A DNA stretch of 64,000 bases, taken from Dyella amyloliquefaciens (lineage in GTDB: Bacteria > Pseudomonadota > Gammaproteobacteria > Xanthomonadales > Rhodanobacteraceae). This document shows positions 12,817-42,626 of this stretch, in pieces. How positions within the stretch are numbered: position 1 is the first letter of the stretch; each line of letters opens with the position of its first letter. The notes beneath the pieces are model-generated. The model saw only the letters and a program-made list of their open reading frames with translations, was not told the DNA's origin and made no database searches. The stretch lies in NCBI RefSeq assembly GCF_004296575.1, contig NZ_SAYT01000002.1, positions 735,313-799,312 on the forward strand, read 5' to 3'. Made by a program: the position numbers and the translations under genes.

Positions 12817-12841
12817 TGCCGCCTCCTCGCCCAGCCGATCG

Positions 12842-22174: not shown

Positions 22175-22203
22175 TGAGTGCCCGGTTCCGCCCAAACGGT
22201 TGC
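22175..22203 (-). promoter_or_regulatory. Predicted ECF-sigma promoter A (ABC exporter)
   Basis: On the minus strand GCAACC is followed after exactly 16 bases by GCACTCA. It lies between the stop of the HprK-like gene and the ABC exporter start, about 70 bases before the latter. The same bipartite motif occurs at five other places in 22-43 kb. Confidence 0.65.
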
Positions 22204-22210
22204 CTGCCCG

Positions 22211-23233
22211 TCAGGCGAGCAACGTCAGCAGGGCATCCACCGAAGCCTGGGGATGCACCCCGCGGCGCAGCTCATGCACTCCGAGTCGCGTGATGGTCTG
22301 CTGGAAGGTCGACCAGCCGGGCTGACCCGAGGCGTAGGGCTGATCATTGATCAATCGACCGGCGACAGTCTCGAGCGGCAGCGCTTGCAACAGGTGTTGG
22401 GGGTCGTCCGCTTTCCGGGCGGAAACGAATACCGCCCCGACGAGTTCGAGCGGACCGGAAGACATCGAAATCGGCGCCCGCCGCAGATCCGCTTCGTGCT
22501 TTACCACACCGCTGCGGCGGCGGATCACGGGCGCATCGCGTATCCATGAGCGCGCGGAGTCACCGCTGACAAAGCCGAGTGCATCGTCCTTCACGTGGAG
22601 AAAATTCGCGACGCCGGTGGCTAGCATGCTTTGGGGTTCGACGAAGACGGCATCCTCGGCAAGGAAGTCCAGCCCATGCAGCAGGCTGTGCAGAGCCAGC
22701 GTCGACTTGCCCGAACCGCTCGCGCCAAGCAGCACCAGCCCGCGTCCATGCCGCCCGACACAGGCGCCATGCAAAGGCACCAGGCCAAGCCGGCACGTGG
22801 CCATGGTAAACACCGCGAATTCGATGAGTTCGTAGCGCAGGTGATAGGGAAAGGCCAGCATGTCGCGCGAGACCACCACCAGCGCCCTTCCCTGCTCGGG
22901 CGACATCACCACATAGTTGCGTTCGTCCATCACGCCGCACAGCAACCCTGCGCCCGACTGCGCGCGCACGGCCGGTGGTTCGCCGGTCGTCGTCATTGAC
23001 CGACCCGGCACGAGACGCAGCTCGATGTGGAACTCCGGAGCCGATACCGGCAACCGATGCGCCGGCAATCCCGCATAGGCCATCCGTACCAACTGCAGCA
23101 GTTCGGGGCTGTCGCTCTCGAAACGGAAATCGCCACCCATCAGGCTCGCAAGCACGACGTCGCGCTCGCCGACCCGTTCCTGAAAGGGGTCCAGGCTCGA
23201 TTCACTGATACCGGGAAGCGAGGTCGTGGCCAT
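22211..23233 (-). CDS. HprK-like serine kinase-fold protein
   Basis: A 340-residue protein whose second half carries a P-loop typical of HPr-kinase-related proteins: VPLHGACVGRHGRGLVLLGASGSGKSTLALHSL, then LDFLAEDAVFVEP. It lacks the N-terminal domain of true HprK. Related kinases accompany nucleotidyltransferases in peptide-modification (lasso-type) and some glycan clusters, and a nucleotidyltransferase gene is indeed close by here. No lasso cyclase or PqqD-like gene is in the window. The target is unknown. The start at 23233 has AGGG before it; the longer frame lacks support. Confidence 0.78.
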   Translation of the reverse strand: MATTSLPGISESSLDPFQERVGERDVVLASLMGGDFRFESDSPELLQLVRMAYAGLPAHRLPVSAPEFHIELRLVPGRSMTTTGEPPAVRAQSGAGLLCGVMDERNYVVMSPEQGRALVVVSRDMLAFPYHLRYELIEFAVFTMATCRLGLVPLHGACVGRHGRGLVLLGASGSGKSTLALHSLLHGLDFLAEDAVFVEPQSMLATGVANFLHVKDDALGFVSGDSARSWIRDAPVIRRRSGVVKHEADLRRAPISMSSGPLELVGAVFVSARKADDPQHLLQALPLETVAGRLINDQPYASGQPGWSTFQQTITRLGVHELRRGVHPQASVDALLTLLA

Positions 23234-23312
23234 GGTCGCGCCCTGGAAATTCCGTCGCCCGTGATAGCACATCACCGTGCAAACGGACATCCAAATATTT
23301 TTGAGCGCAAGG

Positions 23313-23341
23313 GCAACCCTCGCCTCGTGACAAGGCACTCA
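23313..23341 (+). promoter_or_regulatory. Predicted ECF-sigma promoter B (radical SAM operon)
   Basis: GCAACC at 23313-23318 and GCACTCA at 23335-23341 with exactly 16 bases between. It points at the B12-type radical SAM gene 80 bases downstream. A 23-codon open frame (23356-23427) lies between and overlaps the start of the enzyme gene; its status is uncertain. Confidence 0.65.
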
Positions 23342-23420
23342 CATCCAACTGAGCGATGAGCGCGGACGGCCGCCAGGCCGACTCCAGCGCCCGCCGACAC
23401 CCGATTGAGGCTTCCCCGCA

Positions 23421-24908
23421 ATGCTAAAGATCCAGGTCGGCCACTCCTATTACCTGAGGTTCGACCGGAAGCAGTGGGAGCGTGGCAAGCCCTACCCGCC
23501 ACTGGCGACCATCCAGGTCGCGGCCCTGCTGCGGCGGATGGGGCACGCCGTAGCCCTGTTCGACGCCATGCTCGCAGAAGGCGAGGCCTCGTTTGCGGCC
23601 AACGTGCATGCGCAGCAGCCCGATGTCGTCGTGCTCTACGAAGACAACTTCAACTACCTCACCAAGATGTGTCTCGCGCGCATGCGCGAGGCGGCCTGCC
23701 AGATGATCGGTGATGCCCGCGCCACCGGTGCGCGAGTGATCGTCGCGGGGTCCGATGCCTCCGACCAACCCGAGGCTTTCCTCGCCGCGGGCGCGCATGC
23801 CGTGCTCATCGGCGAAGGCGTCGCGCCGCTGATCGAGCTGATGGAACGACTCGAACGCAACCCGGCCATCGACACCCCGTCATGGGTATCCGGCATTGCC
23901 GGCGTGGCTTCGCTGGACAGCGGCGAAACGCGCCTTACGCGTGTGGGCGTGCTGCCGCCCGATCCACGTATCGTCGGCCATCCGGCGTGGGACCTGGTCG
24001 ACGTCGATCGCTACCGTACGATGTGGCAGGAGCGGCACGGCTATTTCAGCCTCAACATGGCGGCTTCGCGCGGATGTCCATTCCGTTGCAACTGGTGCGC
24101 CAAGCCGATCTGGGGCAACCACTACAACCGCCGCACCGCGCAGGATGTCGCCGAGGAGATGAGTCATCTCAAGACGACCTTCCATCCTGACCATATCTGG
24201 ATGGCGGATGACATCTTCGGTTTCCATGTGAACTGGGTGGAGGAGTTCGCGCAGCACCTCACCGCAGTCGATGGCTCCGTCCCCTTCACCATCCAGACGC
24301 GTGCCGATCTGATCAGCGAACGGATGGCTGCCGCCCTGAAACAGGCGGGTTGCGCGGAAGCATGGCTGGGCGCCGAAAGTGGCAGCCAACGCGTACTGGA
24401 TCGCATGAACAAGGGCACCCATGTCGCCGACCTGATCGCCGCTCGCGAACGCCTCGGTGCACTCGGCATCCGCGTCGGCTTCTTCATCCAGCTTGGCTAT
24501 ATGGGCGAACAACTGGTCGACCTGCTGGCGACACGCGAGCTGATCGAACGGGCGGCGCCGGACGACATCGGCGTGAGCGTGTCGTATCCGCTGCCGGGAA
24601 CCAAGTTCTACGAGCAGGTGAAGGCGCAGCTTGGCGAGAAGACGCATTGGCGCGAAAGCAACGACCTGGCGATGATGTTCCGCGGCGCCTACGACTCCGA
24701 TTTCTATCGCAGCTTCCGCGACCTGCTGCATGAACAGGTCGCCTTGCAACAAGCCATGGCCACCGGGCAACGACAGGACGAGCGCACAAGGATGGCGCTT
24801 GAGGCTCGCTGGGATATGCTGATCGCCACGGAAGTCGAGCACCGCACGGAGGGCGCGCCGGTCATGCCGCTGATCGCTCCGCAGGGCAAGGCCCAGGCAT
24901 CGCTCTGA
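23421..24908 (+). CDS. B12-binding-type radical SAM enzyme
   Basis: The 495-residue protein has an N-terminal cobalamin-binding-like Rossmann domain (PPLATIQVAALLRRMGHAV...DVVVLYEDNFNY, GARVIVAGSDA, GAHAVLIGEGVAPLIELM) and a radical SAM core with the cluster motif SRGCPFRCNWCAKP (C-x3-C-x2-C) followed by HIWMADDIFGF and GAESGSQRVLDRMNKG. Members of this class methylate, rearrange or couple unactivated carbons in lipids, peptides, sugars and natural products. Its gene overlaps nothing but is followed by a nucleotidyltransferase 10 bases on. Substrate unknown. Confidence 0.9.
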   Translation: MLKIQVGHSYYLRFDRKQWERGKPYPPLATIQVAALLRRMGHAVALFDAMLAEGEASFAANVHAQQPDVVVLYEDNFNYLTKMCLARMREAACQMIGDARATGARVIVAGSDASDQPEAFLAAGAHAVLIGEGVAPLIELMERLERNPAIDTPSWVSGIAGVASLDSGETRLTRVGVLPPDPRIVGHPAWDLVDVDRYRTMWQERHGYFSLNMAASRGCPFRCNWCAKPIWGNHYNRRTAQDVAEEMSHLKTTFHPDHIWMADDIFGFHVNWVEEFAQHLTAVDGSVPFTIQTRADLISERMAAALKQAGCAEAWLGAESGSQRVLDRMNKGTHVADLIAARERLGALGIRVGFFIQLGYMGEQLVDLLATRELIERAAPDDIGVSVSYPLPGTKFYEQVKAQLGEKTHWRESNDLAMMFRGAYDSDFYRSFRDLLHEQVALQQAMATGQRQDERTRMALEARWDMLIATEVEHRTEGAPVMPLIAPQGKAQASL

Positions 24909-24918
24909 GAGCCGACGC

Positions 24919-26130
24919 ATGCTGCCCCCGCTCAAGACCATCAAGAACGGCTTGCATCGCACCACCGAGGCACTGGCGGCGGAGCTGGCAAAACCGGGCA
25001 CGCCAACGCCCGATTGGAATGCGCTCGAATGGCGACTGGCCTCGGTGTCGGCCGTGGTGCACGGTGTATCGCCCCTGCTCAGCCAACGCTGCACGTGGCA
25101 GGCACCGGATTGGCAGCCGTTTCTCGCAGCACAGTGCGAGCATGTCGAGCAGCGACACCGGCGAGTTGCGACGCTGTTGCAACAGATCGACCTGGCTGCG
25201 CGCTCCGCAGGCGTGGCCATCGTTCCGCTGAAAGGCAGCGCCCTGCATGCCATGGGCCTCTACGTGCCTGGCGAACGCCCCATGGCCGATATCGACCTGC
25301 TGGTGCGCGAAGCCGATGCGGCAGAAGCTTCGCGGTTGCTGCAGGATCTTTGCTATGTGGAATCGTTCAATGCGTGGAAGCACCGTGTGTTCAAGCCGCA
25401 TGGGGCTGAGCCACGGGCCGTGCTGGGTGAACACCGTGACACGCCGATCAATGTCGAGCTGCATATCCGTATCCAGGAACGTCTTCCCGTCTCTCCGGTA
25501 GACATTTCGGGGCGGGTCCATCCGTCTCAGCCTCACGCTGGTCTGAATGCCTATCCATCGACCGCTGCGTTGATGAGTCATTTGCTGCTGCACGCGGCGG
25601 GAAATATCTGCAATCGCAGTTTCCGCCTCCTTCATATGCACGACATCGCCCTTCTATCGACGCGCATGACACCTGATGACTGGCACAACTGTCTCGACGA
25701 ACGTCTCTCGGGACCGGCATGGTGGGCGCTACCGCCGCTGACGCTGGTGGCGCGCTATTACCAGGGCGTTGTTCCCGAGGCCGTTCTGGAACGGCTGCAC
25801 GCCACCTGCCCATCGATCTTGAGGATCATCTCGCGCCATCAGACCCTCACGCAGGTGTCCTGCTCCGATCTGTGGCTGCATGCATTCTCCGGCATCGAAT
25901 GGTCGCGCTCGCTCACCGAAGTGACGCTCTACCTGAGGAACCGTATCCGCCCGCCCCAGGGAGCGGTCAACGAACGCAATGACATGGCACGTACCCAACT
26001 GTGGCTGAGGGACCAGCCATGGGTCACCGCACCACAGAAGCGGCGCGTGCTGACCTGGCTGACCCAGCCTGTGCCGCGCATGGACACGATGTATGCGGTG
26101 CGCGCTGCCCTGGAGCCCTCTGCAGCCTGA
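24919..26130 (+). CDS. Nucleotidyltransferase-fold protein (NTP_transf_5 type)
   Basis: A 403-residue protein with the polymerase-beta-like nucleotidyltransferase signature in VPLKGSALHAMGLYVPGERPMADIDLLVRE: the G-S pair followed by the D-x-D metal site. The rest is alpha-helical with a His-rich middle (SHLLLHAAGNICNRSF, HMHDIALL). This family of uncharacterised nucleotidyltransferases often sits beside HprK-like kinases in peptide- or glycan-modifying clusters. It is translated right after the radical SAM gene and ends 10 bases from the convergent glycosyltransferase gene. Confidence 0.78.
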   Translation: MLPPLKTIKNGLHRTTEALAAELAKPGTPTPDWNALEWRLASVSAVVHGVSPLLSQRCTWQAPDWQPFLAAQCEHVEQRHRRVATLLQQIDLAARSAGVAIVPLKGSALHAMGLYVPGERPMADIDLLVREADAAEASRLLQDLCYVESFNAWKHRVFKPHGAEPRAVLGEHRDTPINVELHIRIQERLPVSPVDISGRVHPSQPHAGLNAYPSTAALMSHLLLHAAGNICNRSFRLLHMHDIALLSTRMTPDDWHNCLDERLSGPAWWALPPLTLVARYYQGVVPEAVLERLHATCPSILRIISRHQTLTQVSCSDLWLHAFSGIEWSRSLTEVTLYLRNRIRPPQGAVNERNDMARTQLWLRDQPWVTAPQKRRVLTWLTQPVPRMDTMYAVRAALEPSAA

Positions 26131-26139
26131 TCCACCACG

Positions 26140-27252
26140 TCAGCCGTCGAGACCGCCCGTGAGCAACTGCAGGTACAGCGTCTCGAACGACTTCGCGGTG
26201 TAGTCCGCATCTTCCAGCATGGCCTTGCGTTGTGCTGCCAGGGCCATACGCAATCGCAGCGGTTCGTCAGTGAGCACCCGCGCGATGGCGCCTGCAAGCG
26301 CCGACCAGTCGCCAACCGGCACCGCGAGCGCTGCCTTGGGCGACCATTCGGCGATATGCCCCACCTCCGTGCCGACCGTAGGGACCCCGACAGCCGCCGC
26401 CTCGAGCAGTACCAGCGGCCCCGCTTCGTGGCATGACGACATCACCAACAGGTCGGCCCGCTCCATCAGCGGACGCAGTTCGCGCTGTGTCTTGAAGCCG
26501 AGCAGGCGGACATGGCGTTCCAGGTCAAGCTGGCGAACCAGCTGATGAACCTCGCCATGCAGCGTGTCCACGCCGACGATATCCATGCTGAACGCAACGC
26601 CCTTTCGCGCCAACACGGCGAGCGCGCGCAGCAGGGTCGCCTGGTCCTTGACGCGGTTGAGGCTGGCGACGTGAATCAGCTTCGCGGTGCCGTGATGGCG
26701 CTCGCGCGGACACAACGGTGGCCAGGAACGCAGATCGACGCCGAGCGGTACGCGGCGTCCCTGGATACGCAGCTTCCGCAGCGAATCGACGATGGGCCGG
26801 CTTGCCCCGGTGACGATGTCCGCAGCGCGCAGCACCACGGCCTCCCGCATCCGGCCTTTCCAGCGCCGACGCCCGCCGTAGTCGATCTCGTCCATCGCCA
26901 CGAGTTCCCCGCCGGCGACATGCACCAGGCTGGGCAGGCCCAGCAGCCTCGCCGCCGCTACCGCCACGAGTCCACACGATCCGGAGAAGATCGCATGCAC
27001 GAGGTCGAACGGTCCGCGGCGATGTTCCTCGCGGATCGCCGCAATCGCACGGATACGCGACCAGCCATCGCCAATGTTGTGCACGGTGGCACCGGACAAG
27101 CCCCAGCGGTCCGCCGCCGGCTCCTGACGCAGCGCAAAGACATGGACTTCATGCACGCGGGCCAGCCGCTCGATCAATGCCAGCAGCACGGGAATCACGC
27201 GGAACTCGCCCGTACGGTCCACGCCACCCGGCACCACCAGCGCGAGCTTCAC
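26140..27252 (-). CDS. GT4-type glycosyltransferase
   Basis: A 370-residue GT-B glycosyltransferase: N-terminal Rossmann part (LALVVPGGVDRTGEFRVIPVLLALIERLA) and C-terminal nucleotide-sugar part with LIHVASLNRVKDQATLLRAL, HVRLLGFKTQRELRPLMERADLLVMSS and the EX7E-type block CHEAGPLVLLEAAAVGVPTVGTEVG. The GTG start at 27252 overlaps the stop of the preceding gene (GTGA), so it is translated by coupling. It is the last gene of the 32.7-26.1 kb operon. Donor and acceptor sugars are not predictable. Confidence 0.87.
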   Translation of the reverse strand: MKLALVVPGGVDRTGEFRVIPVLLALIERLARVHEVHVFALRQEPAADRWGLSGATVHNIGDGWSRIRAIAAIREEHRRGPFDLVHAIFSGSCGLVAVAAARLLGLPSLVHVAGGELVAMDEIDYGGRRRWKGRMREAVVLRAADIVTGASRPIVDSLRKLRIQGRRVPLGVDLRSWPPLCPRERHHGTAKLIHVASLNRVKDQATLLRALAVLARKGVAFSMDIVGVDTLHGEVHQLVRQLDLERHVRLLGFKTQRELRPLMERADLLVMSSCHEAGPLVLLEAAAVGVPTVGTEVGHIAEWSPKAALAVPVGDWSALAGAIARVLTDEPLRLRMALAAQRKAMLEDADYTAKSFETLYLQLLTGGLDG

Positions 27253-28385
27253 GAGGCCCTCCGCCACCGTTGCTGGATGACTTGCGCATAGGCGCGCGTC
27301 CACAGGCGCCCCACGGTATCGAACGATAGCGATGCATCGAAATGGGCGCGCACGCGGTCACGCGGCAGGTCATTCGTGCCAGCGCGAATCAACGCGGCAG
27401 CCAGGGCCGATGCGTCGCCCCGTGGCCACAGATGTCCGACCGTGCCGTTCGCGGTGAATGCGCGGAATGACGGAATGTCCGTGACCACCGGCCTGACGCC
27501 ACAGGCCATCGCCTCGAGCAGCGCGTAGCCACTACCTTCCACGTGGCTGGCCGAGATGTACAGGTCGGCAGCGCGCATCAGCGATTCCACGAGCGCGTGG
27601 GCCACCTTGCCCATGAGGTGCACGCGACCCGCCAGTCGCGCATCGGCGTCGATGCAGCGCCGCACGTCTTCCATCAACGGCGCGCTGCCGAAAGCGCACC
27701 ACAGATGCAGCTCCGGCAGGTGAGGCACCGCCTGGGCGATGCCTTCGAGCATGGTCAATGGGTCCTTGTTGCGATTGAGGTGACCCACCCAGAGCACACA
27801 GGGATCGCCGTACAGACCCGTCGCCAGTCGCGCCTGCGCCTGGCTGCCCGGCGTGAAGTGGCTGCTGGACTCGGGTATGGCGAAGAGCGGGGTCGACGTC
27901 CCGAACAAACCGGCTTCGATGAACGGGCGCGCCTGTTCCAGTGCGGTGAACGCCACGCCGGAAGCCACTCCATACCAGCGGCGCCATAGTGGTCGCCGCC
28001 ACCAGCGCGGCGGACGATTGGCATGATCCTGCAGCACGATGGGCACCTGTGGCAGGTGCCCGGCCAGGGCGAAGGTTTCCTCTGCAAACCCCAACCCGTT
28101 CACGTGGATCACATCGACATCCAGTGCTTCGAGCAGACGGGCCACGAGGTGACCACGATCCACAGGCCGCTTCGCGCCATCGATGCTGGCGAACCGATAG
28201 TCGACACCGTGCCGTTCCACCCGCTCCGAACGCAGCGCCAGCTGGATCACCGAAACACGCGTGCCGCTGGCACACACCGCCTCGGCCACGTTCGGCAACG
28301 ACGGCCAGTGATGAAACACCTCGTCCGGCCCCCATTCCAGTGGAGGGACCACGAAATTGATCTGCGCAACATGCACGGAGCCCAC
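27249..28385 (-). CDS. GT4-type glycosyltransferase
   Basis: A 378-residue GT-B glycosyltransferase with VLWVGHLNRNKDPLTMLEGIAQ, GRVHLMGKVAHALVESLMRAADLYISAS and the EX7E block HVEGSGYALLEAMACGVRPVVTD in the C-terminal half. A GTG at 28376 with GGTGGG before it is an alternative start. It follows the radical SAM gene by a few bases and overlaps the next glycosyltransferase gene. Together the two would add two sugars to the product of the cluster. Confidence 0.87.
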   Translation of the reverse strand: MGSVHVAQINFVVPPLEWGPDEVFHHWPSLPNVAEAVCASGTRVSVIQLALRSERVERHGVDYRFASIDGAKRPVDRGHLVARLLEALDVDVIHVNGLGFAEETFALAGHLPQVPIVLQDHANRPPRWWRRPLWRRWYGVASGVAFTALEQARPFIEAGLFGTSTPLFAIPESSSHFTPGSQAQARLATGLYGDPCVLWVGHLNRNKDPLTMLEGIAQAVPHLPELHLWCAFGSAPLMEDVRRCIDADARLAGRVHLMGKVAHALVESLMRAADLYISASHVEGSGYALLEAMACGVRPVVTDIPSFRAFTANGTVGHLWPRGDASALAAALIRAGTNDLPRDRVRAHFDASLSFDTVGRLWTRAYAQVIQQRWRRAS

Positions 28386-28389
28386 CGAT

Positions 28390-29895
28390 TCAGAGTCCCG
28401 AGACCTGCGGCATGCGCAGCCGCACCAGACGGTTGGCGAGATCGAGCTCCCATGGGCGGTCGTAGCGGCGGTAGCGATAACGCCACGCCGCCGCCGTGCT
28501 AAGCGCCCGCTTGGCCCACGGTGGCGAGCGCATGTCCTGCACGGTGGGATAGCGGCAACGCAGCACCGTCACAAAATCATGGATGCGCTGGCGCATGCGG
28601 TCGGTCAGCCACGGCGCATCGGCATGGCACGTGTAATTGACCCATCGCGGCTGGGCCCACTCTTCCACGGTCGTGGGAAAAACCACAGGCTCGCCGTTGA
28701 GATCGAGCAGTGGCGCCGAGGGTCGCCTGGCGCGGTCCTTTTCGTTGCGGCTGAATTCCGGCAGCGGCGTGTAGACGTAGACCACGACCTCGCTGTGCGG
28801 ATTGATCTTCTTCAACTCGCGGATGAACTCGAAGGTATGTTCGGTTTCCTCTTCGGTGTTTTCCGGGGGCGCGACCATGAAGGACAGCTCGGGAATCACC
28901 CCGTTTCGCCGGCACGCCTCGACCGCCGCGACGGTCTGATCGGGTCGCGTGCCCTTGCGGATGTCCTTGAGCATCTGGCCACTGGGCGATTCCGCACCGA
29001 TGTAGGCCATGCGCAGCCGGCTCTTGCGCACCAGCTTCCAGGCCCGGTCGGACAGCTTGAGCAAGGCATCGGAGCGTGCATAGCACCACCATGGCATCTC
29101 ATGGCGCGCCATGACTTCGAGCAGCGGGATCATGTCTTCCTCGCGGTCGAAGAAATTGTGGTCGAAGTACTGCACCGAGTCGGCGCCCAACTCGTACTTG
29201 AGATAACTCAGGTCGCGGTCGAGCCGCTCTGCCGACGACAGCATCGTCGTGCCACCGAACATCGCCGCCACGCCACAGAACGTGCAGCGGAACCGGCAAC
29301 CGATCGCGGCCTGGTGCGCTGCCGTGCGTCTGCCGAGATAAGTGCGTGCGAGATAGCCACGTGGATCGCCGAGCTTTTCGTAGGGCAGCACGCGCCCGGG
29401 GTCGGCATGGCTAAAGCGGCGCGGTGCATTGTGGATCGTGGCACCACCTCGCTTCCACGATAGTCCATCGATACCGGCGACATCGGGCACCGCCGCCTTG
29501 CCCAGCGCCGCGACCAGTTCGCTGAAGGTCTGCTCGCCCTGGCCGCGGATGGCGTAGTCGACATACGGCGCCGCGAGCGCCGCTTCGGTGTTGAGCGTCG
29601 GAAAATAGCCTCCCCAGGTGATCGGCACCCGGGGATGGCGCGCGCGGATGGCCTTGGACAGCGCGATGGCCGGCGCCAGCTGCGGGCCACCCATCACGCT
29701 GATGCCCACGGCATGGAAGCGCTCGCTTTCCATCGCGCGCAGCGCTTCGTTGACCACATCGCGGTCGACGTTGCCGTCGACGATGCGGCTGCGACCTGTC
29801 CGGTCCAACGTCGCGGCGAGGTTCAGCAGCGACAGCGGGAATCGCGCGCTGGAGCGGGAGGTGATGGTCGGGTTGATCAGCAGTGTGTTGGTCAT
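28390..29895 (-). CDS. B12-binding-type radical SAM enzyme (second)
   Basis: The 501-residue protein has an N-terminal B12-binding-like domain (LLINPTITSRSSARFPLSLLNLAATLD, FHAVGISVMGGPQLAPAIALSKAIRARHPRVPITWGGYFPTL) and the radical SAM cluster in IGCRFRCTFCGVAA (C-x3-C-x2-C), then QYFDHNFFDREEDM and GAESPSGQMLKDIRKG. It differs clearly from the first radical SAM gene, so the two are not a recent duplication. The start at 29895 is the ATG of MTNTLLINP; the longer open frame is an artefact reading through the neighbouring gene. A methyltransferase gene precedes it by 20 bases. Confidence 0.9.
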   Translation of the reverse strand: MTNTLLINPTITSRSSARFPLSLLNLAATLDRTGRSRIVDGNVDRDVVNEALRAMESERFHAVGISVMGGPQLAPAIALSKAIRARHPRVPITWGGYFPTLNTEAALAAPYVDYAIRGQGEQTFSELVAALGKAAVPDVAGIDGLSWKRGGATIHNAPRRFSHADPGRVLPYEKLGDPRGYLARTYLGRRTAAHQAAIGCRFRCTFCGVAAMFGGTTMLSSAERLDRDLSYLKYELGADSVQYFDHNFFDREEDMIPLLEVMARHEMPWWCYARSDALLKLSDRAWKLVRKSRLRMAYIGAESPSGQMLKDIRKGTRPDQTVAAVEACRRNGVIPELSFMVAPPENTEEETEHTFEFIRELKKINPHSEVVVYVYTPLPEFSRNEKDRARRPSAPLLDLNGEPVVFPTTVEEWAQPRWVNYTCHADAPWLTDRMRQRIHDFVTVLRCRYPTVQDMRSPPWAKRALSTAAAWRYRYRRYDRPWELDLANRLVRLRMPQVSGL

Positions 29896-29915
29896 GGGCG
29901 TGATCCGGGCAACCG

Positions 29916-30614
29916 TCAGGGCAGCCGCCTCAGCTGGAAGACGATGGTCACAGGCACCTGCAGTGCCATCGGGTCGAAGCGCGCTCCGTCGGGTACGTCC
30001 GAGGGGTCGAGCATGGGTTCGACCACCTCCTCGATCTCCAGGCCGAGCGCCGCACAGGCTGCGTGCCAATGGCTGTACAGATGGGTGATGTGTCGTATCG
30101 CGTAACGCTGACCACCCGACTTGAAGTCGCGCAGCCAACCCAGCGCGTGCCCGATCGGGTGCACGTCGCTGCACAACAACAGACCGCCGGGACGCGTCAC
30201 GCGGCGCAGTTCCGCCAGCGGGCGCTCCAGGTTGTCGATATGTCCGAGCACCAGCCCGCTCAACGTGAGATCGGCCCAGGCGTTCGGCATCGGCAAGGCG
30301 GCAAGATCGCCCTGCACCAGCTCGATCACGGCATCGCCCCGCACACCGGCCAGCTCCTCGCCAGCACGATCGAGCATTGCCGGCGACGCATCCACGCCGG
30401 TGACGCGTGTCGCGCCACGGCGCAGCGCATGCAACATGTACCGGCCGCTGCCGCAGCCAGCGTCGAGCACGGAATAGCCCTCCAGGCGTGCGGGCAGCAG
30501 GGCAAGCATCGCCCGCTCTTCCGCAAGCATCACCGGGTTGTGGGCCCGCGCCGGATAATTCGGTGCCCACAACGCATACGCTTCGAGCGGATCGAGTATC
30601 GGTGGACGCGACAT
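29916..30614 (-). CDS. SAM-dependent class I methyltransferase
   Basis: A 232-residue methyltransferase with motif I VLDAGCGSGRYMLHAL, acidic GVDASPAML, GDLAALPMPNAWADLTLSGLVLGHI and post-motif LRRVTRPGGLLLCSDVHPIG. The ATG at 30614 shares one base with the stop of the upstream amidohydrolase (TGATG). The substrate is not evident; the ubiE/bioC-like layout fits small-molecule methylation in the cluster. Confidence 0.87.
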   Translation of the reverse strand: MSRPPILDPLEAYALWAPNYPARAHNPVMLAEERAMLALLPARLEGYSVLDAGCGSGRYMLHALRRGATRVTGVDASPAMLDRAGEELAGVRGDAVIELVQGDLAALPMPNAWADLTLSGLVLGHIDNLERPLAELRRVTRPGGLLLCSDVHPIGHALGWLRDFKSGGQRYAIRHITHLYSHWHAACAALGLEIEEVVEPMLDPSDVPDGARFDPMALQVPVTIVFQLRRLP

Positions 30615-31843: not shown

Positions 31844-31847
31844 CGGC

Positions 31848-32817: not shown

Positions 32818-32846
32818 TGAGTGCTTTTGCGCAGACCTTTGGTTGA
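32818..32846 (-). promoter_or_regulatory. Predicted ECF-sigma promoter C (methyltransferase operon)
   Basis: On the minus strand TCAACC, 16 bases, then GCACTCA. One base of the -35 part differs from the other sites. It lies between the end of the polysaccharide operon and the methyltransferase gene that heads the 32.7-26.1 kb operon. An open frame of 26 codons (32809-32729) starts just behind it and overlaps the methyltransferase start. Confidence 0.6.
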
Positions 32847-32888
32847 ATGGCTCGCGCGAGCCGGGCCATCTCCTTCGCGGCGTGGGAC

Positions 32889-34870: not shown

Positions 34871-35796
34871 GCGCCCTCCGCCAGATGCATAGCGGCGCGC
34901 AGCTTGATGCGCGAGGCCGCCAACAGCGACAGATAGACCACCATGTGGACGGTCACCGAGCCGTACCGCCGCTGCAGGAAGGAAATCTTGGCGCCGAGAT
35001 AGTGGGATTGCGCCTTCAGCAGGGACCGGTACGGCTCCTGGAACAGGCATTCACGACGGATTGCGACGTTCTGCGCCTCGATCAGGTTGAGAATCCGCGC
35101 GCGGGCGTCGCGCGTCCGGCTCAGGTTCGAGCTGTGGATGCGATATGCGCAGACATTCACGTCGATGAAACCGATGGCGTCATGCGCCGCGAGTCGCAGG
35201 AAGAAGTCCCAGTCGTCGATGCGCAGGCTTTCGCTCCAGCCGGCCACGCTCTCCAACGCGCGCTTGCGGATCAGCGCGACCGGTCCGCCGACGGCCCACT
35301 GGGTAATCACGGCCAAGCGTATGCCATCGTCGGATGCGTAAAGGCGCTTGTCCGCATGGTGGAGATCGCGCATCCCGCTCTCATGCAACCTGCGGTCGTC
35401 CTGGTCGACCACCACGGAATCGCCGATTACCGCCCACTTGCGCGGATGAGCCAGCAGGTAACCCACCAGTGCATCGAGACCGCCGGGCAGCAGATAGTCG
35501 TCACTTGCACCCAGGCGCAGGAACTCGCCCCGTGCCCGCGCGGCCAGTTCATTCAAGGTCGCCGCGATGCCACGGTTGTCGCGGCGCACGTACTCCACGG
35601 GCAGGTCCCGCCGGTGCCGTGATATCCAGGCTTCGATGCGCCGAGCGGTACCGTCGGTGGAACCGTCATCGATGATCACCAGCTCCTTGGCCGGATACGG
35701 ATCTTCCAGCACACTGTCCAGGCAACGCTCGATGAAGCGTTCGTGGTTGAACGCCGGGATGAGGATGGAGACCAGCGGCAAGGCCGGCGCGCTCAT
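34867..35796 (-). CDS. GT2-family glycosyltransferase
   Basis: A 309-residue GT-A enzyme: LVSILIPAFNHERFIERCLDSVLEDPYPAKELVIIDDGSTDGT at the start, LRLGASDDYLLPGGLDALV with the DxD-type metal site, and GGPVALIRKRALESVAGWSESLRIDDWDFFLRLA. It transfers a sugar from a nucleotide donor to a growing oligosaccharide at the inner membrane. It is the only glycosyltransferase in the 41.1-32.9 kb operon. Both ends overlap neighbouring genes by ATGA. Confidence 0.9.
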   Translation of the reverse strand: MSAPALPLVSILIPAFNHERFIERCLDSVLEDPYPAKELVIIDDGSTDGTARRIEAWISRHRRDLPVEYVRRDNRGIAATLNELAARARGEFLRLGASDDYLLPGGLDALVGYLLAHPRKWAVIGDSVVVDQDDRRLHESGMRDLHHADKRLYASDDGIRLAVITQWAVGGPVALIRKRALESVAGWSESLRIDDWDFFLRLAAHDAIGFIDVNVCAYRIHSSNLSRTRDARARILNLIEAQNVAIRRECLFQEPYRSLLKAQSHYLGAKISFLQRRYGSVTVHMVVYLSLLAASRIKLRAAMHLAEGA

Positions 35797-37067
35797 GGGT
35801 ATTGCGGCGACCATTGCCCCAACCCTCCGAGGAATCGACGCGCGACCCATACGTTGAACAGGAAGTACAGCGTGTAGTTGGCCGTGAACGCGTACATCGC
35901 CCCCACCAGCCCGAAGTACGCGGTGAAGGCGTACACCAGTCCGAGGTAGCTGGCGGCGAACACGCACTCGGACGCGACGAACAGGCGCGTCATCGCCTTG
36001 GCCAGCATCAGGTAGGACAGAACGAAGGACGCGATCTTGATCACGTCGCCCACCAGTTGCGGCCCATACAGGACGTTGGCGGAGGCAAAACCTTCGTTGA
36101 AGAGCAGCAGGGTCACCCAGCCACGCGCGATGAACACCGCCAGGGCAAGCACGACCACCAGCGGCAACAGGAACCGGTAGGCGTTGCGCAGCTCCATGAC
36201 GAGCGATGCGCGGTCGTCGATCGAGGCGAGCTTGGGCAGGTAATAGACGTTGATGGCCGTGGTGATGAACAGCAGGTACGCGTCGGATACCTTGCTCACC
36301 GCCTGCCAGTAACCCACCTGCTCCCAACCGAACTCGCTGGCCAGGTAGTCTCGCACCGCGATGTTGACCAGCGGCGACAGCAAGGCCGCGGTCAGTGTCA
36401 TCACCGAGAAACGGGCCAGCCGCCTGATCATGTCGCCGTCGAAGCGCAGCCGCAGCATGCCGCGCCGGAAGTACGGGCTGCGCCACCACGCTGGCAGGCC
36501 AACTGCCAGCCAGAGCGCCTGGCCCAGCACGAGGGCCAGCAACGCCCCGTACAGATGCAGCCAGTGCGAAAGCCACGCCACCATCGCGACATTGAGAATG
36601 GAGCCCGCGACCTGCACCAGCGCCAATCGGCGCACGTCCATGAAACCGTTGATCACGGCCAGCACGTAGTTGGCCAGGGCGATGCCGAACTGTGCCACGG
36701 CAAGGGTGCGGATGAGGCTGGCGTAACGGCTGTCGCCCAGCAGCCATTGCGCAAGCGGCTGGCTGAAGACCAGCGTGACCACGCCCATCAGCAGCGAAGC
36801 GCCGAGCGCGTACCACAGCGCCGCTCCCAGCAGGCGCGTGAGGCGCACCTTGTCGTCGCGATACTCGGCCACGTACTTGACGATGCCCGCGCTGATACCG
36901 CCGCCGGCCAGCACGGCGAGCAACGACATCAAGCTCATGAACTGGCCGAACTTGCCTACGCCCTCGGGCCCAGCGAACGAGGCCACCAGCTTGATCACCA
37001 CCAATCCGGCAAGCAGGCGCGCGGCGGTGGAGGCCGCCGTGTAAAAGCTCGCGCGCATGATGTTCAC
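35793..37067 (-). CDS. Wzx flippase (O-antigen translocase type)
   Basis: A 424-residue membrane protein with about twelve helices, typical of the MATE-like Wzx/O-antigen translocases ([38 protein letters not shown] at the start resembles WzxE). It would flip lipid-linked repeat units across the inner membrane for Wzy. The start codon appears to be GTG at 37067, overlapping the stop of the aminotransferase (GTGA); an ATG at 37058 is possible. Confidence 0.88.
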
Positions 37068-38176
37068 CGCGCGCCCCCGAAGGTCTCGCAGGCCTGCACT
37101 ACCTGCGCGACCGCTTGCGCGTCCATCGTCGGCCCCATCGGCAGGCTCAGCACCTCTCGATGCAGGCGTTCGGTGAGCGGCAGCCGGATGTCATGCAGCG
37201 AGGGATAAGCCGGCTGGAAGTGCGGTGGCAGCGGATAGTGCACCTGGCTCTGGATGCCATGGCTCTCCAAATGGAGATGCAGTTCGTCCCGGCGATCGCT
37301 GCGCACCACGAACAGGTGCCAGACGTGCCCCTCTTCATGGATCACCGTGGGAAGCAGGATGTTCCAGTGGTGGATACCCTCACGGTAACGCCTCGCCACT
37401 TCGCGCCGCCGCGCAATGTCTTCGTCCAGGTACTTCAGCTTCACGCGAAGCATCGCGGCCTGCATTTCGTCGAGACGCGAATTGATGCCCTGGTACGGGT
37501 AGTGGTACTTCACCTCCGAACCGTAGTTGCGTAGCGCCGCAATGCACCTGGCGAGCGCATCGTCGTCGGTGACCACCGCGCCGCCATCGCCCAGCGCCCC
37601 GAGGTTCTTCGTCGGAAAGAAGCTGAACCCCGCCGCATCGCCCCACGCACCGGCCTTTCTCCCCGACCCGACCGCGCCGTGGGCCTGCGCGGCGTCCTCG
37701 ATCAGCAGCAGCTTGTGCTGTCTGGCAAGTGCGGACAACGCGGGCATGTCCGCCAGCTGGCCATACAGGTGCACCGCCATGATGGCGCGTGTGCGTGGCC
37801 CTATGGCGTCTTCCACGCGCATGGGATCGAGATTGAAGGTCGTGGGGTCGGGCTCGACCGGCACGGGGACAAGGCGGTTCTCTGTGATCGCGAGGAAGCT
37901 GGCAATGAAGGTATTGCCGGGTACGATCACCTCGTCACCCTCGCGCAGCGCACCGAGCTGCTTGTAGCCACGCAGGATCAGCGACAGTGCATCGAATCCG
38001 TTGCCCACCCCCACCACGTGCCGCACGCCGCAATAGGCGGCGAATTCGCGTTCGAACGCCGCGACTTCCTCGCCCAGGATGTACCAGCCTGAATCGATCA
38101 CGCGTGCAGCGGCAGCCTTCAGCTCGTCGGCATGGCGCGCATTCACTTCGCCGGCACTGAGGAAGGGGACGCTCAT
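37064..38176 (-). CDS. DegT/DnrJ/EryC1 sugar aminotransferase, FdtB-like
   Basis: A 370-residue PLP-dependent aminotransferase. The lysine is in [20 protein letters not shown], the aspartate/glutamine pair in [12 protein letters not shown], and [10 protein letters not shown] and [17 protein letters not shown] complete the family pattern. Together with the FdtA-like isomerase and an acetyltransferase in this operon it is expected to make a dTDP-3-amino-3,6-dideoxyhexose (Fuc3N or Qui3N). The ATG shares a base with the upstream stop (TGATG). Confidence 0.88.
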
Positions 38177-39105
38177 CAGAGCACCCACTCGTAGAAATCG
38201 TGCGCGATGCCACGCGCACCGAAGTACTCCTTCTGCGCCACCAGCCCTCCATTGAGCACCCGCCCCTCCTGCTCGGTGGAGATGCCGAACGAAAAGTAGT
38301 GGCGTCCCGCATAGAACGCGATCAGCTCGGCCAGCAGAAGGCTGAGTGCATTCTCGCGACGCCCTTCATCCGAGGTGGCCAGATACTGGGTATGCACCAC
38401 GCGGCCGAAGTCGTACGCGACCGAGCCCGCCAGCAGGCGTCCTTCGTGGCGTACCTCATAGAGCAGGATCTGCTCCGGAAAGCGCGACTGCAGCAGGCGA
38501 AGTTCGTCCAGGCTGTGGGTCGGTACGGCGTCGTGCTTGCGCAGCACGTCGGACAGCAGCGCGTGGAAATCGGTCGGGTCGTTGTTCGGGTGGATCGCCA
38601 GGCCTCTGCTGCGCGCCTTGCTGACCGCGCGCTTGCGCTCATCGGTGAAGCGGAAGGGTTCATGCAAGGCGATGACGGAGGCGATATCGCGGCGCTTCAA
38701 CCGCGCCCCGAGCCGATGCAATGCATACAGGTCCTCCTCGGCGGGATAGCGGTGAAACACGTGCGGCACGGCCTTGTAGACGACCTTGTCGACACCCAGC
38801 GAGCGATAGAGCTCACCGATCTGACCGAATGCCTCCAGCGTCGACTCGGCGCGCAGCGCATGGGTGGAGATCAGGCCGCCATAGGTGAGGCCGCCGTGGC
38901 TCACCACGGTCTTGCCCAGTACGTTGGCAGGGAACACCGCCACCGGCACGCCACGGCGCTCGACGATCAGAGAGCGATCCGTGAAGCGATCGGCGTGATA
39001 GTCCATGTAGCCGCGCCGATGCAGCAGCACGCCATTCCTGGACTCCGCGACCACCGCGTCCCAGGCGTCCGCGTCCGTCGGCGCATAAGGCCTAACCGCC
39101 AGCAT
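38176..39105 (-). CDS. FemAB/GNAT-like acyltransferase
   Basis: A 309-residue protein with two GNAT-like halves: [39 protein letters not shown] near the start and [45 protein letters not shown] near the end. This is the layout of FemAB-related peptidyl or acyl transferases found in polysaccharide operons. It may attach an aminoacyl or acyl group to the amino sugar. It overlaps the upstream gene by 14 bases. Confidence 0.75.
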
Positions 39106-40045
39106 GGCTGCCTCCCATGCCTGACGGCGGCTGGGTTTCGGCTACGCCGAAGCCATCCACCCCCATGTCATTGCCGTTGTAGAACATCAGCAGCTTGTCG
39201 CGCTGCCGGATCAGGGCGGGATAGCAGATGACCCTCGAATCCCATCCACTGGGCGACAGCGAAAGGCCCAGCGACTCGTCGTGGCGCTCCCAATGGATGC
39301 CATCCGCGCTGTAGGCCACGCCAGGGAAATATTCGCCCGTCACATTACCTCGCGTGAAGTACATGACGTAGCCATCGCCCCATCGATAGACGCGCGGACG
39401 ACCGATGCGGTATTCGCTGCCCCGAGGCCGCAGGCAGACATGATCCTCGCGAGCTATCGCCGTGAGGTCGTCCGTCTCCACACAACGGATGTGGTAGCGG
39501 GGAAACGAACGACTACCGATGGTTTCCCAGTCGTCACCCACCGCGTACCAAAGTCGCCAGCGATCACCTTCACGCAGCACGGAATGCACTGCACCGATGG
39601 TGCTGCGCCCCGGTGCACGGTCCAGGATGGGTGTTTCCTGGACACGCTCGAAACGTTCACCGCCATCCCGCGAGATCGCCAGTCCCGTGAAGGCGAGGAA
39701 CTTCGCATGAGCCACGCGCTGGAAGCCCACGTACAACATGTGCAGGCCATCGGGTGTATCCACCAGATCGCCGAGGATCATGCCGCTGTCGTCGAAGCAC
39801 CCGCCCCGCCCGACATCCAGCACTGGCTTACCACTCACGCGCACGATGGACGATGGCTCGTCGGCCCGTACGTCCACGTAACCGATACGGCTTACGCCAT
39901 CCTCGTCGCGGAAGCCCGCATAGACGCGGATGAGGCCGTCATCGATGCGCCACGGCGTCGGCGTGAGTGCCGAATGCGCCATCCAGCCGCCCACGCCCTG
40001 GCGGGCGGTGTCGAAAACCAGCCCCCTCTTGGTCCAATCGAACAT
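39092..40045 (-). CDS. Five-bladed beta-propeller glycosidase-like protein
   Basis: A 317-residue protein with repeated propeller strands: DGLIRVYAGFRDEDGVSRIGYVDV, DTPDGLHMLYVGFQRV, EGDRWRLWYAVGDDWE, WGDGYVMYFTRGNV, QRDKLLMFYNGND. These are typical of GH43/GH32-like folds. There is no signal peptide, so it works in the cytoplasm or is not a true hydrolase. Such genes are common beside FdtA-type sugar genes. The ATG at 40045 is preferred to a TTG nine bases earlier. Function in the pathway is unknown. Confidence 0.7.
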   Translation of the reverse strand: MFDWTKRGLVFDTARQGVGGWMAHSALTPTPWRIDDGLIRVYAGFRDEDGVSRIGYVDVRADEPSSIVRVSGKPVLDVGRGGCFDDSGMILGDLVDTPDGLHMLYVGFQRVAHAKFLAFTGLAISRDGGERFERVQETPILDRAPGRSTIGAVHSVLREGDRWRLWYAVGDDWETIGSRSFPRYHIRCVETDDLTAIAREDHVCLRPRGSEYRIGRPRVYRWGDGYVMYFTRGNVTGEYFPGVAYSADGIHWERHDESLGLSLSPSGWDSRVICYPALIRQRDKLLMFYNGNDMGVDGFGVAETQPPSGMGGSHAGG

Positions 40046-40050
40046 GGGTG

Positions 40051-40716
40051 TCAAAGCCTCACGTCGAAGCTGGAGCGGTCCGGTACTGCACGTGCGGGCG
40101 AACCGACATAGACCCTGCCTGCCTCCGTATCGCGCGTCACCAGGGCGCCCGAACCGATCACGTTGTCCTGCGCCACCTTCACGTGGTCGTTGAAGGTGGT
40201 GTTGACCCCTATGAAGCTGCTGTCACCGATGTCGCAATAGCCGGAGATGACCGCATGGGAGGCCACGAACACGTTGTCCCGAAGCACCGTGCGATGCCCC
40301 ACGTGGTTGCCGCTCCACAGGATGCAGTTGTTGCCGATGCGCACGAACGGCTGGATCACGTTGTTCTCGAAGATGAAGCTGTTCTCGCCGATCTCCGCAT
40401 TGCGCCACACGAAGGCGCGCGAACTGACATAGGTGGCGAACCGATAACCCCGGCCCTTGGCGTCCAGGTAGAAGCGCGTGCGCAGGCGATTGAGCTGGCT
40501 CGCCGGAATGGCTACGAACGCGTCGTAGTCCGCCGGAGGAAAATGCCTCTCCAGTTCCTCATAGGGCACCACCGGCCGGTCCGCCAGCGTGGGCTGGTCG
40601 AGGAAGGCACGCTCGACGCTGAAGGCCGCGACGTCGTAGTCGCTGTCGTGCTGGAAGTATTCGCAGGCGATCAGCGCTAGCTCACCCGCTCCGATGAGCA
40701 CTAGCGGCCTTGGCAT
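40051..40716 (-). CDS. NeuD/PglD-like sugar N-acetyltransferase
   Basis: A 221-residue protein with an N-terminal nucleotide-binding-like part (LVLIGAGELALIACEYF) and a left-handed beta-helix of hexapeptide repeats (IGENSFIFENNVIQPFVRIGNNCILWSGNHVGHRTVLRDNVFVASHAVI). It closely fits acetyl-CoA-dependent acyltransferases that N-acetylate UDP- or dTDP-amino sugars. It follows the FdtA-like gene with a 16-base overlap, giving the isomerase-aminotransferase-acetyltransferase set. Confidence 0.82.
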   Translation of the reverse strand: MPRPLVLIGAGELALIACEYFQHDSDYDVAAFSVERAFLDQPTLADRPVVPYEELERHFPPADYDAFVAIPASQLNRLRTRFYLDAKGRGYRFATYVSSRAFVWRNAEIGENSFIFENNVIQPFVRIGNNCILWSGNHVGHRTVLRDNVFVASHAVISGYCDIGDSSFIGVNTTFNDHVKVAQDNVIGSGALVTRDTEAGRVYVGSPARAVPDRSSFDVRL

Positions 40717-41135
40717 GCTGCCATGTCTCCCGGATAAGCCGATTCCACTTCGTGCAGGAACAACGCATAGTCCGTGATGTAGTCCGCCGGGTCGTACAAC
40801 TGGTCGGCCAGCACCATCAACACGCAGTCCTCGGTGAAGTCGTACATCTCGCGCCACACCATGCGCCGCAGCAACAGACCTTGCGACGGGTCGTTCAGCA
40901 CGACCTCGCACGGTCCCCTGCCATCGTCGACAAGAAAGGTGACCGAGCCGCGTACGGTGACCGCAAGCTGGTTGAGATTGCGATGGGCGTGCATGCCGCG
41001 GTGCACGCCGCACCTGGTGGAAAACAGGTAGTAGACGCGACGGATCTCGAACGGCACGTTGAGATCCTGCTCCAACGAAATGAGCATGCCGCGATCATCG
41101 CCATGCTGCTGCAACTGGATTCGTTCGATTTCCAT
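40701..41135 (-). CDS. dTDP-4-keto-6-deoxyglucose 3,4-ketoisomerase (FdtA/WxcM type)
   Basis: A 144-residue cupin with the FdtA/QdtA pattern: GDDRGMLISLEQDLNVPFEIRRVYYLF, GVHRGMHAHRNLNQLAVTVRGSVTFLVDDG and LRRMVWREMYDFTEDCVLMVLADQLYDPADYITDY. The catalytic histidine is in HAHR. It turns the 4-keto into the 3-keto sugar that the aminotransferase uses. It is the first gene of the polysaccharide operon and lies 43 bases behind promoter D. The rmlA/rmlB functions must be supplied from elsewhere in the genome. Confidence 0.9.
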   Translation of the reverse strand: MEIERIQLQQHGDDRGMLISLEQDLNVPFEIRRVYYLFSTRCGVHRGMHAHRNLNQLAVTVRGSVTFLVDDGRGPCEVVLNDPSQGLLLRRMVWREMYDFTEDCVLMVLADQLYDPADYITDYALFLHEVESAYPGDMAACQGR

Positions 41136-41177
41136 GTCGGTGGCTAGGCGGAAACACTCGAGGACGATGTCGTTAGC

Positions 41178-41206
41178 TGAGTGCCGCCTGACCGGCGAAA
41201 GGTTGC
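41178..41206 (-). promoter_or_regulatory. Predicted ECF-sigma promoter D (polysaccharide operon)
   Basis: On the minus strand GCAACC, 16 bases, GCACTCA. The distance to the FdtA-like start codon is 43 bases. It stands back to back with plus-strand site E, and the two -35 parts form an inverted repeat (GCGAAAGGTTGC / GCAACCTTTCGC). Confidence 0.68.
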
Positions 41207-41241
41207 GCTCGCAGTCGCCGTAAAGGGGCTGCAAGGCGCAT

Positions 41242-41270
41242 GCAACCTTTCGCGACGCTGCAGGCACCTA
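41242..41270 (+). promoter_or_regulatory. Predicted ECF-sigma promoter E
   Basis: GCAACC at 41242-41247, 16 bases, then GCACCTA at 41264-41270 (two bases differ from the GCACTCA of other sites). It would transcribe rightwards from about 41276, through 530 bases without a secure gene, into the outer-membrane barrel gene. Confidence 0.5.
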
Positions 41271-41277
41271 GCATGCG

Positions 41278-41577
41278 ATGACCGCCCTGACCCTCGTGCC
41301 TTCAGCCCCATCGACCAGAAGCCAGGCCTCACCTGCATGCTCCGGTACATCTGCGGCCTCACTCTCGCGTACCCGCAGCGCGGCAGCGGGTACAGCGACA
41401 CGCACTACCCTTCCATGGGAGACCCGTGCCGATGGGCAGCACATTCCTCACGCTGCTCGGAGTGCCCTTCGGCAAGGCCCGATGGACATGGAGAACGGGC
41501 AAGCGATGCAGTTATCTGTCGCTGCCGGCGAGGCAGGCCAACGCGGGTACCTGTATGAAGACGAGCCGCCCAGATGA
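41278..41577 (+). CDS. Doubtful small open frame behind promoter E
   Basis: A 99-codon frame whose ATG lies almost at the predicted start of transcription of site E. The first 50 residues are Ser/Ala/Thr-rich and the end (MENGQAMQLSVAAGEAGQRG then YLYEDEPPR) looks more protein-like. Third-codon-position GC is clearly lower than in neighbouring genes, and there is no ribosome site. It may be a decayed gene or non-coding leader; I list it so that the 41.28-41.80 kb stretch is not read as empty. Confidence 0.2.
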   Translation: MTALTLVPSAPSTRSQASPACSGTSAASLSRTRSAAAGTATRTTLPWETRADGQHIPHAARSALRQGPMDMENGQAMQLSVAAGEAGQRGYLYEDEPPR

Positions 41578-41666
41578 CCGCATCCGCTGGAGTACCTGCC
41601 CTCGCGATTCGACACCTCCGGTTGACCCCACACCTTGACCCGGCCGACTGTATAGAATCGCCTGAA

Positions 41667-41765
41667 CTCCACACCGGGGAGCGGTGCATGCACCGAAGGT
41701 GTCGTACCAGCTTCGGCAGCGACGGCCTGTTGACGGCTGTTCTCCCCGGGAATCCGACCGTGGAG
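41667..41765 (+). other. Structured leader element upstream of barrel gene
   Basis: About 100 bases fold on paper as nested stems: CTCCAC (41667-41672) with GTGGAG (41760-41765), CCGGGGAG (41674-41681) with CTCCCCGG (41742-41749), and inside them CCGAAG (41693-41698) with CTTCGG (41711-41716), beside the 12-base palindrome GGTGCATGCACC (41683-41694). Directly before the ATG at 41803 another stem, GGCGGG/CCCGCC, covers the only purine-rich stretch. This looks like a regulatory 5' leader. I could not match it to a riboswitch family I know. Confidence 0.4.
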
Positions 41766-41802
41766 CTTCCGCGGCGGCAGCGGTGGCGGGCCTGACCCGC
41801 CC

Positions 41803-42588
41803 ATGACCGCGCTCCTTTCCACCTGCGCAGCTTCCCTTCGCTTCCGCCAAGCCTGCGCCGGCAGAGCCTGCGCACGCCACCTCGCCTTGCTGGTGGGCGC
41901 CTGTCTGCCCATGGCTATCCATGCGCAGTCATCGAGTATCAATGGCACCGTGGCGCTCAGCTCGCAGCTGGTGGACCGGGGCCAGGCCGTCACGCCGCAG
42001 ACGCCGATCCTGCAGGGCGCCATGTCCTGGTCCTTCGCCAAGGGATGGTTGCTTGGGATTTCCGCGGGCGTCGAAGCGCGCGAGCCCGACCGCTTCGCCG
42101 AAACGCTGGCCCAGGCGGCCAAGTCGTGGTCGCTGTCGCCGGACTGGCAGATACAGGCGAACCTCGCTTACTACGACTATCCCGTCAGCCAGCACACGCA
42201 AAGCTTCGATCGCACCGAAGCCGGGGTGAGCTGGATCTACCGGGACGTGCTCACGCTGGGCGTATCGGCGATCTATCCCGTGGGCAAGGCCGAACACAAG
42301 CTGCACGGCGCCGCGGACATCGGCTTCCACTGGCCGCTGCCCCACCATTTTTCGCTGTCCGCCGGCCTCGGCATCATCCAGTCCAACTTTGTCCAGTACG
42401 CGTACTATGGGAACGAGTACTACGCGTACAACCGGTTGGAGACCTATAGCTATGGCCATGCCGGACTGCTATGGAACTACGGCCCCTGGCGTGTGGAAAT
42501 GGACCGCATCGCAACCTCGGGTCTCCCCCATATGCAGGGTTATCCGGACACAGCCCCTTGGGTTGCCACTGTCTCATGGTCGTTCTGA
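41803..42588 (+). CDS. Outer-membrane beta-barrel protein (TorF-like)
   Basis: A 261-residue precursor with a long signal region ending in AIHAQ and then amphipathic strands ending in a terminal Phe strand (PWVATVSWSF), as expected for outer-membrane barrels. The beginning of the mature part (NGTVALSSQLVDRGQAVTPQTPILQGAMSWSFAKGWLLG) resembles the TorF/gcw_chp family of small putative porins. It lies between the polysaccharide operon and the sigma operon, so it may export or anchor the product. The start codon has no clear ribosome site except inside a hairpin. Confidence 0.72.
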   Translation: MTALLSTCAASLRFRQACAGRACARHLALLVGACLPMAIHAQSSSINGTVALSSQLVDRGQAVTPQTPILQGAMSWSFAKGWLLGISAGVEAREPDRFAETLAQAAKSWSLSPDWQIQANLAYYDYPVSQHTQSFDRTEAGVSWIYRDVLTLGVSAIYPVGKAEHKLHGAADIGFHWPLPHHFSLSAGLGIIQSNFVQYAYYGNEYYAYNRLETYSYGHAGLLWNYGPWRVEMDRIATSGLPHMQGYPDTAPWVATVSWSF

Positions 42589-42597
42589 CGCCCGCAG

Positions 42598-42626
42598 GCA
42601 ACCTTTTGGTGCCAGAGCGGCACTCA
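42598..42626 (+). promoter_or_regulatory. Predicted autoregulatory ECF promoter F
   Basis: GCAACC at 42598-42603, 16 bases, GCACTCA at 42620-42626, ending 31 bases before the sigma gene start. Most ECF sigma genes are autoregulated, so a matching promoter here is the best argument that the shared motif belongs to this sigma factor. Confidence 0.7.

Follow-up and report, generated by a model that had tools for sequence, protein, structure and literature searches.

Which regulator, if any, ties together the gene cluster that runs from an ATP-binding cassette (ABC) exporter to a subtilase (20341-45172) in a 64,000-nucleotide stretch of the Dyella amyloliquefaciens genome (contig NZ_SAYT01000002.1, positions 735,313 to 799,312; hereafter the window)? 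A preliminary description of this DNA proposed that six copies of a bipartite motif, CAACC-N16-GCACTCA, place the cluster under one extracytoplasmic function (ECF) sigma factor encoded within it. A letter check of the window recovered all six at the positions and on the strands then listed (Table 1), with the same mismatch classes: relative to the 13 fixed bases GCAACC-N16-GCACTCA, four sites have no mismatch, one has one and one has two. Comparison with relatives indicates that these sites are very probably the promoter elements of a single ECF sigma regulon.

The motif is rigid within the window. The two halves, said to be identically spaced, occur as CAACC-Nk-GCACTCA in five places at k = 16 and in none at any other k from 8 to 30. 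The exact 13-base pattern has four matches, a number reached by none of 100 shuffles, for an expectation of 0.0027 at the window composition (about 0.002 in 64 kb had been estimated). The whole genome (4.83 Mb) contains CAACC-N16-GCACTCA seven times, five in the window and two on contig C1, and its reversed control 0 times. Looser scans are not informative: nine matches with two mismatches in the window are not above chance (shuffle mean 7.7), and three mismatches in the genome gave 24 matches vs 20 in the reversed control. Therefore, the counts given below are based on strict patterns or on a matrix, weak single sites were left out, and the sixth site, weak on its own, draws its support from relatives.

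Footprinting in these relatives shows that the sites are specific to transcription units. Among 53 loci whose sigma factor is at least 70% identical to that of the window (some being one place counted from two collections), 52 have their best upstream match at spacer 16, located 28-42 bases from the sigma start. A matrix built from 40 distinct sites before sigma genes was run on 28 clusters. At score >=10 it found 168 sites, for 15 when reversed; 166 of the 168 fall outside the matched cluster genes and two inside. The claim that the motif precedes the transcription units of the cluster holds in up to 28 genomes, including for units unused in training: the gene encoding a radical S-adenosylmethionine (SAM) protein with a B12-binding-like region (28/28), fdtA (25/27), the first methyltransferase (22/28, with a distinct conserved form, TCAACCAAA, across relatives) and the ABC exporter (21/27). 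With 200 column-permuted matrices, the mean was 0.00-0.11 genomes per unit and the highest single count was 5. Operon-internal genes (those of the NTP_transf_5 nucleotidyltransferase, amidohydrolase, DegT, anti-sigma factor, S8 subtilase, GT4a, second radical SAM protein and Wzx) carry a matrix site in 0/27 or 0/28 genomes each. The sigma gene itself is preceded by the motif in 28/28 genomes, which fits the proposed autoregulation at the level of sequence.

The motif might instead be a direct-repeat operator (GCAACC / GCACTCA, 22 bp apart) of a conventional transcription factor, as GCA is common to both halves and they are separated by about two helical turns. This is very improbable. Pfam recognizes no other regulator between the ABC exporter and the S8 subtilase, close orthologues have the motif 28-42 bases ahead of the sigma start, and an AAC core with a 16-base spacer, as found here, is usual for ECF promoters. 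Furthermore, the motif also precedes more distant sigma genes: among 34 testable loci with sigma identities of 43-62% (one more is truncated at the end of its contig), a matrix site at score >=13 is present in 21 and absent from 13, for 0 with the reversed matrix, the lowest identity still carrying a site being 44.8%. In seven such distant stretches compared with the window genes, the sigma / anti-sigma / subtilase triad is kept but no polysaccharide genes were found. G007 carries a second sigma copy (75%; G007:C1:3013001-3013573, L135) with the exact motif and TorF-like, anti-sigma and S8 neighbours, and no polysaccharide-cluster genes were matched in the fetched 20 kb.

The strict pattern GCAACC-N16-GYACTYA was scanned in 101 genomes. 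There are 117 sites in the 28 genomes that have a sigma orthologue of at least 70% identity (reversed control 15); 27 of these contain two to six sites each, and the remaining one, G024, contains none despite its orthologue. Nine sites fall in the 12 genomes whose homologue is more distant (reversed control 5), and 14 in the 61 genomes without the sigma, never two in one (reversed control 29). The same partition is seen inside the genus: 16 sigma-bearing genomes have two to six sites, and four genomes without a close sigma (G001, G011, G012 and G017) have 1, 0, 0 and 0. These four also lack an orthologue of the radical SAM gene (best matches of 28-29% or none), and G011 has a sigma homologue at 46%. 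These distributions bear on the idea that the sites are promoters read by another ECF sigma factor of overlapping specificity. At E 0.001 or better, the genome yields six matches to the sigma including the sigma itself, and ECF -35 elements are often alike, yet strict sites track the presence of the window's sigma, and the four same-genus genomes keep other sigma homologues and still have almost no sites; a foreign reader is hardly credible. From this co-occurrence, together with the sites, their conservation and the off-cluster target sites found by the same comparison, we infer that the sigma encoded in the window reads the motif. Taken together, unit-specific conservation, the fixed 16-base spacer before sigma genes, the absence of operon-internal sites and the co-occurrence with the sigma point to one autoregulated ECF regulon, in agreement with the initial proposal that one sigma factor ties the cluster together; the regulon also reaches unlinked genes.

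The sixth site was first read as pointing toward the barrel gene. This stands for the window, where the TorF-like gene begins about 530 bp beyond it, and fails in relatives, where a cytochrome operon intervenes. A + strand site facing away from fdtA is found in 22/27 genomes, 17 of which have a CxxCH reading frame after it. Pfam was applied to one example, G037, where cytochrome b561, an unassigned 451-aa protein and cytochrome c lie behind the sixth-site position. Four genomes (G000, G004, G006 and G008) keep the site 355-533 bases before the TorF-like gene, and no CxxCH frames were found there. The sixth site is thus the predicted promoter position of a cytochrome operon of relatives that is missing in the window's clade, and the idea that it serves the barrel gene alone was dropped because of the intervening operon. 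The site need not be dead and may still work, as its GCACCTA variant also lies upstream of the sigma gene in G002 and G005.

The HprK-like gene had been described as lacking a site, and the matrix likewise finds none before it in the window at score >=9. Elsewhere it has its own site in 14/28 genomes at this score (13 at >=10 in a narrower stretch). The seven genomes whose cluster lacks an ABC site all carry this HprK site; in six of them the ABC gene starts 3-93 bases past HprK, in an operon-like arrangement, and in the seventh, G057, it is on another contig (566 aa aligned at 65% identity), behind a site of its own with score 29.3. Genomes with an own ABC site have an HprK-ABC gap of at least 76 bases.

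Twenty off-cluster strict sites were examined, namely both sites of the own genome plus a selection of 18. They precede a methyltransferase (6), a peroxiredoxin (5), an acyltransferase (2) and a relocated ABC exporter (1); the remaining six (L156, L161, L166-L169) have no clear target. The acyltransferase site in G039 reaches a score of no more than 16.1, and a predicted reading frame overlaps it. The two sites on contig C1 of the own genome lie before an AhpC/TSA peroxiredoxin with a signal-peptide-like start, probably exported, and before a SAM methyltransferase. A search of 61 genomes detects the peroxiredoxin (E 1e-40) in all 16 sigma-bearing genomes of the genus and in no other, the searched sigma-bearing genomes of other genera included; 11/16 have a site at score >=13. 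The methyltransferase occurs in 15/61 genomes, 13 of which have a site (score >=9.8), one more reading spacer 17 and one having none. As both genes adjoin the cluster in G009 and G014, they probably moved in the window's genome and kept their promoter.

The features of the window are collected in Table 1.

Table 1. Motif sites and genes of the cluster (positions counted from the first nucleotide of the window)
Feature	Position	Strand	Basis or remark
Promoter motif before ABC exporter	22175..22203	-	0 mismatches; site in 21/27 genomes
Promoter motif before radical SAM/B12 gene	23313..23341	+	0 mismatches; 28/28 genomes
Promoter motif before methyltransferase-to-glycosyltransferase operon	32818..32846	-	1 mismatch (TCAACC); 22/28 genomes, consensus TCAACCAAA
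Promoter motif before fdtA-to-wzz polysaccharide operon	41178..41206	-	0 mismatches; 25/27 genomes
Promoter motif divergent from fdtA, ~530 bp before TorF-like gene	41242..41270	+	2 mismatches (GCACCTA)
Putative autoregulatory promoter motif before sigma gene	42598..42626	+	0 mismatches; 28/28 genomes (matrix trained on such sites)
ABC exporter	20341..22104	-	Pfam
HprK-related kinase-like protein, true start uncertain	22211..23338	-	Pfam/NCBIfam, below cut-offs
Radical SAM protein with B12-binding-like region	23421..24908	+	PF02310 below cut-off
NTP_transf_5 nucleotidyltransferase	24919..26130	+	Pfam
Operon: methyltransferase, amidohydrolase, methyltransferase, B12 radical SAM, two GT4 glycosyltransferases	26140..32738	-	Pfam
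Polysaccharide operon: FdtA, hexapeptide transferase, glycoside hydrolase-like protein (weak), GNAT, DegT aminotransferase, Wzx, GT2, probable Wzy, Wzz	32889..41135	-	Pfam
TorF-like outer-membrane barrel	41803..42588	+	NCBIfam TIGR02001, 44.3 bits, just under cut-off 47.15
ECF sigma factor, 194 aa	42658..43242	+	Pfam Sigma70_r2 and r4_2 above cut-off
Membrane anti-sigma factor: HxxxCxxC zinc domain, one transmembrane segment, periplasmic subtilase-prodomain-like domain (~residues 136-210)	43239..43871	+	Alignment, profile, structure comparisons
S8 subtilase with own prodomain, N-terminal lipobox-like LGAC (by eye)	43868..45172	+	Pfam S8, alignment, model, pro-subtilisin matches

The gene set from the ABC exporter to the subtilase is mostly syntenic across 27 relatives. 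The exceptions are G059, without the fdtA-to-wzz operon, G029, without three genes of that operon, and G057, with no S8 or TorF match within the fetched stretch and an ABC exporter located elsewhere. The downstream FolE2 and cyclophilin genes are present in only part of the 27. Wzy was assigned from hydrophobic segments only, and Rfam (gathering thresholds) and tRNA scans of the window gave no matches. A lasso-like peptide was considered as a product of the HprK-like, NTP_transf_5 and radical SAM genes; the literature found on this amounted to one lasso survey and one review of the genus. Beside the cluster, 16550-20270 encodes a histidine kinase, a response regulator, an AhpC/thioredoxin-like protein and an OsmC-like protein, with no motif at up to two mismatches. 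Further away (10168-14011, - strand), an MtrB/PioB-type outer-membrane porin (898 aa) next to a 389-aa reading frame may serve as a module for extracellular electron transfer, and unassigned frames comparable to it in length (871-898 aa) lie between fdtA and torF or the sigma gene in G013, G014 and G057.

The sigma gene heads an operon with an anti-sigma gene (zf-HC2-type), which overlaps it, and the subtilase gene. Its closest named relative is in D. jiangningensis (95%), others being found in further Dyella, Luteibacter, Rhodanobacter, Pinirhizobacter and Frateuria (about 80-94%). Its best NCBIfam model is PRK12515 (130 bits for a cut-off of 236), and no narrow family is above cut-off among the 25 matches listed. 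The subtilase lies close downstream of the sigma gene in 47/55 loci, and the triad extends to Tahibacter, Dokdonella and metagenome-assembled genomes (MAGs) of Steroidobacter and Thiodiazotropha; in a Roseateles MAG (L209:3757-4508), a motif site near the triad lies ahead of a PEP-CTERM protein. In the anti-sigma factor, H37, C41 and C44 of the zinc motif are invariant in 51 aligned sequences, and its profile matches ChrR (E 1.4e-4) and RsiW (E 3.9e-4). In the subtilase, D192, H225 and S375, assigned as the Asp/His/Ser catalytic triad from the family pattern, are invariant in 48 sequences. Cysteines at residues 112, 258 and 270, one of them within the prodomain, are also invariant in the 48, a possible redox switch.

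The periplasmic domain of the anti-sigma factor seems to resemble a subtilase prodomain. Its model has a beta-alpha-beta-beta-alpha-beta fold like that of solved subtilase prodomains, the best eight structural matches listed are all subtilase prodomains or inhibitor, and hhalign matches its profile to the prodomain of the neighbouring subtilase itself (P 8e-5). PF22148 is recognized in 14/51 members, weakly (best E 0.013), and Foldseek alone gave no match to the model at E 0.001 or better. The operon could contain a signal-sensing pair in which a prodomain mimic couples the state of the protease, perhaps redox, to sigma release, a reading to which we give an even chance. A somewhat less than even chance falls to the domain having only a generic ferredoxin-like fold, with the sigma freed by a different site-1 protease and the subtilase at work elsewhere, for example as a secreted member of the regulon; this sits poorly with structural matches made up of prodomains or inhibitor, with the profile match to the adjacent subtilase and with the conserved proximity of the subtilase gene.

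Assuming the prodomain mimic, the following model can be drawn. The zinc-type membrane anti-sigma factor would hold the sigma until the operon's subtilase docks on, and perhaps cuts, the prodomain-like domain, which would begin sigma release. RNA polymerase carrying the sigma very probably reads -35/-10 elements of the form GCAACCTTT-N13-GYACTYA before its own operon, the fdtA-to-wzz operon, the methyltransferase/radical SAM/glycosyltransferase operon, the radical SAM/nucleotidyltransferase pair, the ABC exporter (alone or together with the HprK-like gene) and a small number of unlinked genes, including those of the peroxiredoxin and the SAM methyltransferase. Released sigma would yield more subtilase, as a feedback, and would turn on the polysaccharide cluster together with the exporter, the cytochromes and the peroxiredoxin. 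That the cue is a redox or oxidative one at the envelope is suggested only by the cytochromes, copper protein and peroxiredoxin of the regulons.

These data define a regulon for this sigma by promoter sequence, members and natural contrasts, the latter being the same-genus genomes in which the close sigma, the radical SAM gene and almost all of the sites are jointly absent. The operon, with its prodomain-like anti-sigma domain, goes beyond the earlier finding and suggests a new form of ECF sigma control, in which an anti-sigma factor with a protease-prodomain mimic is encoded beside the protease gene; if true, envelope proteolysis or redox state would be linked to polysaccharide production. 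No description of the sigma, motif or triad was found in the open-licence literature searched, and the triad may already be a numbered ECF group.

The system resembles RpoE-ChrR and SigW-RsiW in its Sigma2/sigma4 protein, own promoter motif and adjacent HxxxCxxC anti-sigma factor, but differs from them by a single-pass anti-sigma factor with a prodomain-like periplasmic domain, a subtilase in third position and a polysaccharide regulon. The Hrp box read by HrpL (group ECF32; consensus GGAACC-N15/16-CCACNNA) has a similar bipartite layout with different letters. HrpL is placed among sigma factors without an anti-sigma factor in PMC8999054, and membership of the sigma in that group was rejected on this basis, an anti-sigma gene being present and overlapping its own. 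For ECF54, the same source reports a subtilase gene in the context, no anti-sigma factor and a proposed proteolytic control; the proximity of an ECF sigma to a subtilase gene is shared, whereas an anti-sigma factor is present here. The logic closest to the proposed subtilase action is that of SigV-RsiV of Bacillus subtilis, in which, according to PMC5014341, the extracellular domain of RsiV fills and inhibits the active pocket of lysozyme. RsiV has lysozyme as its partner and signal peptidase as its protease, whereas the likely partner of the Dyella anti-sigma domain would be the subtilase encoded by its own operon.
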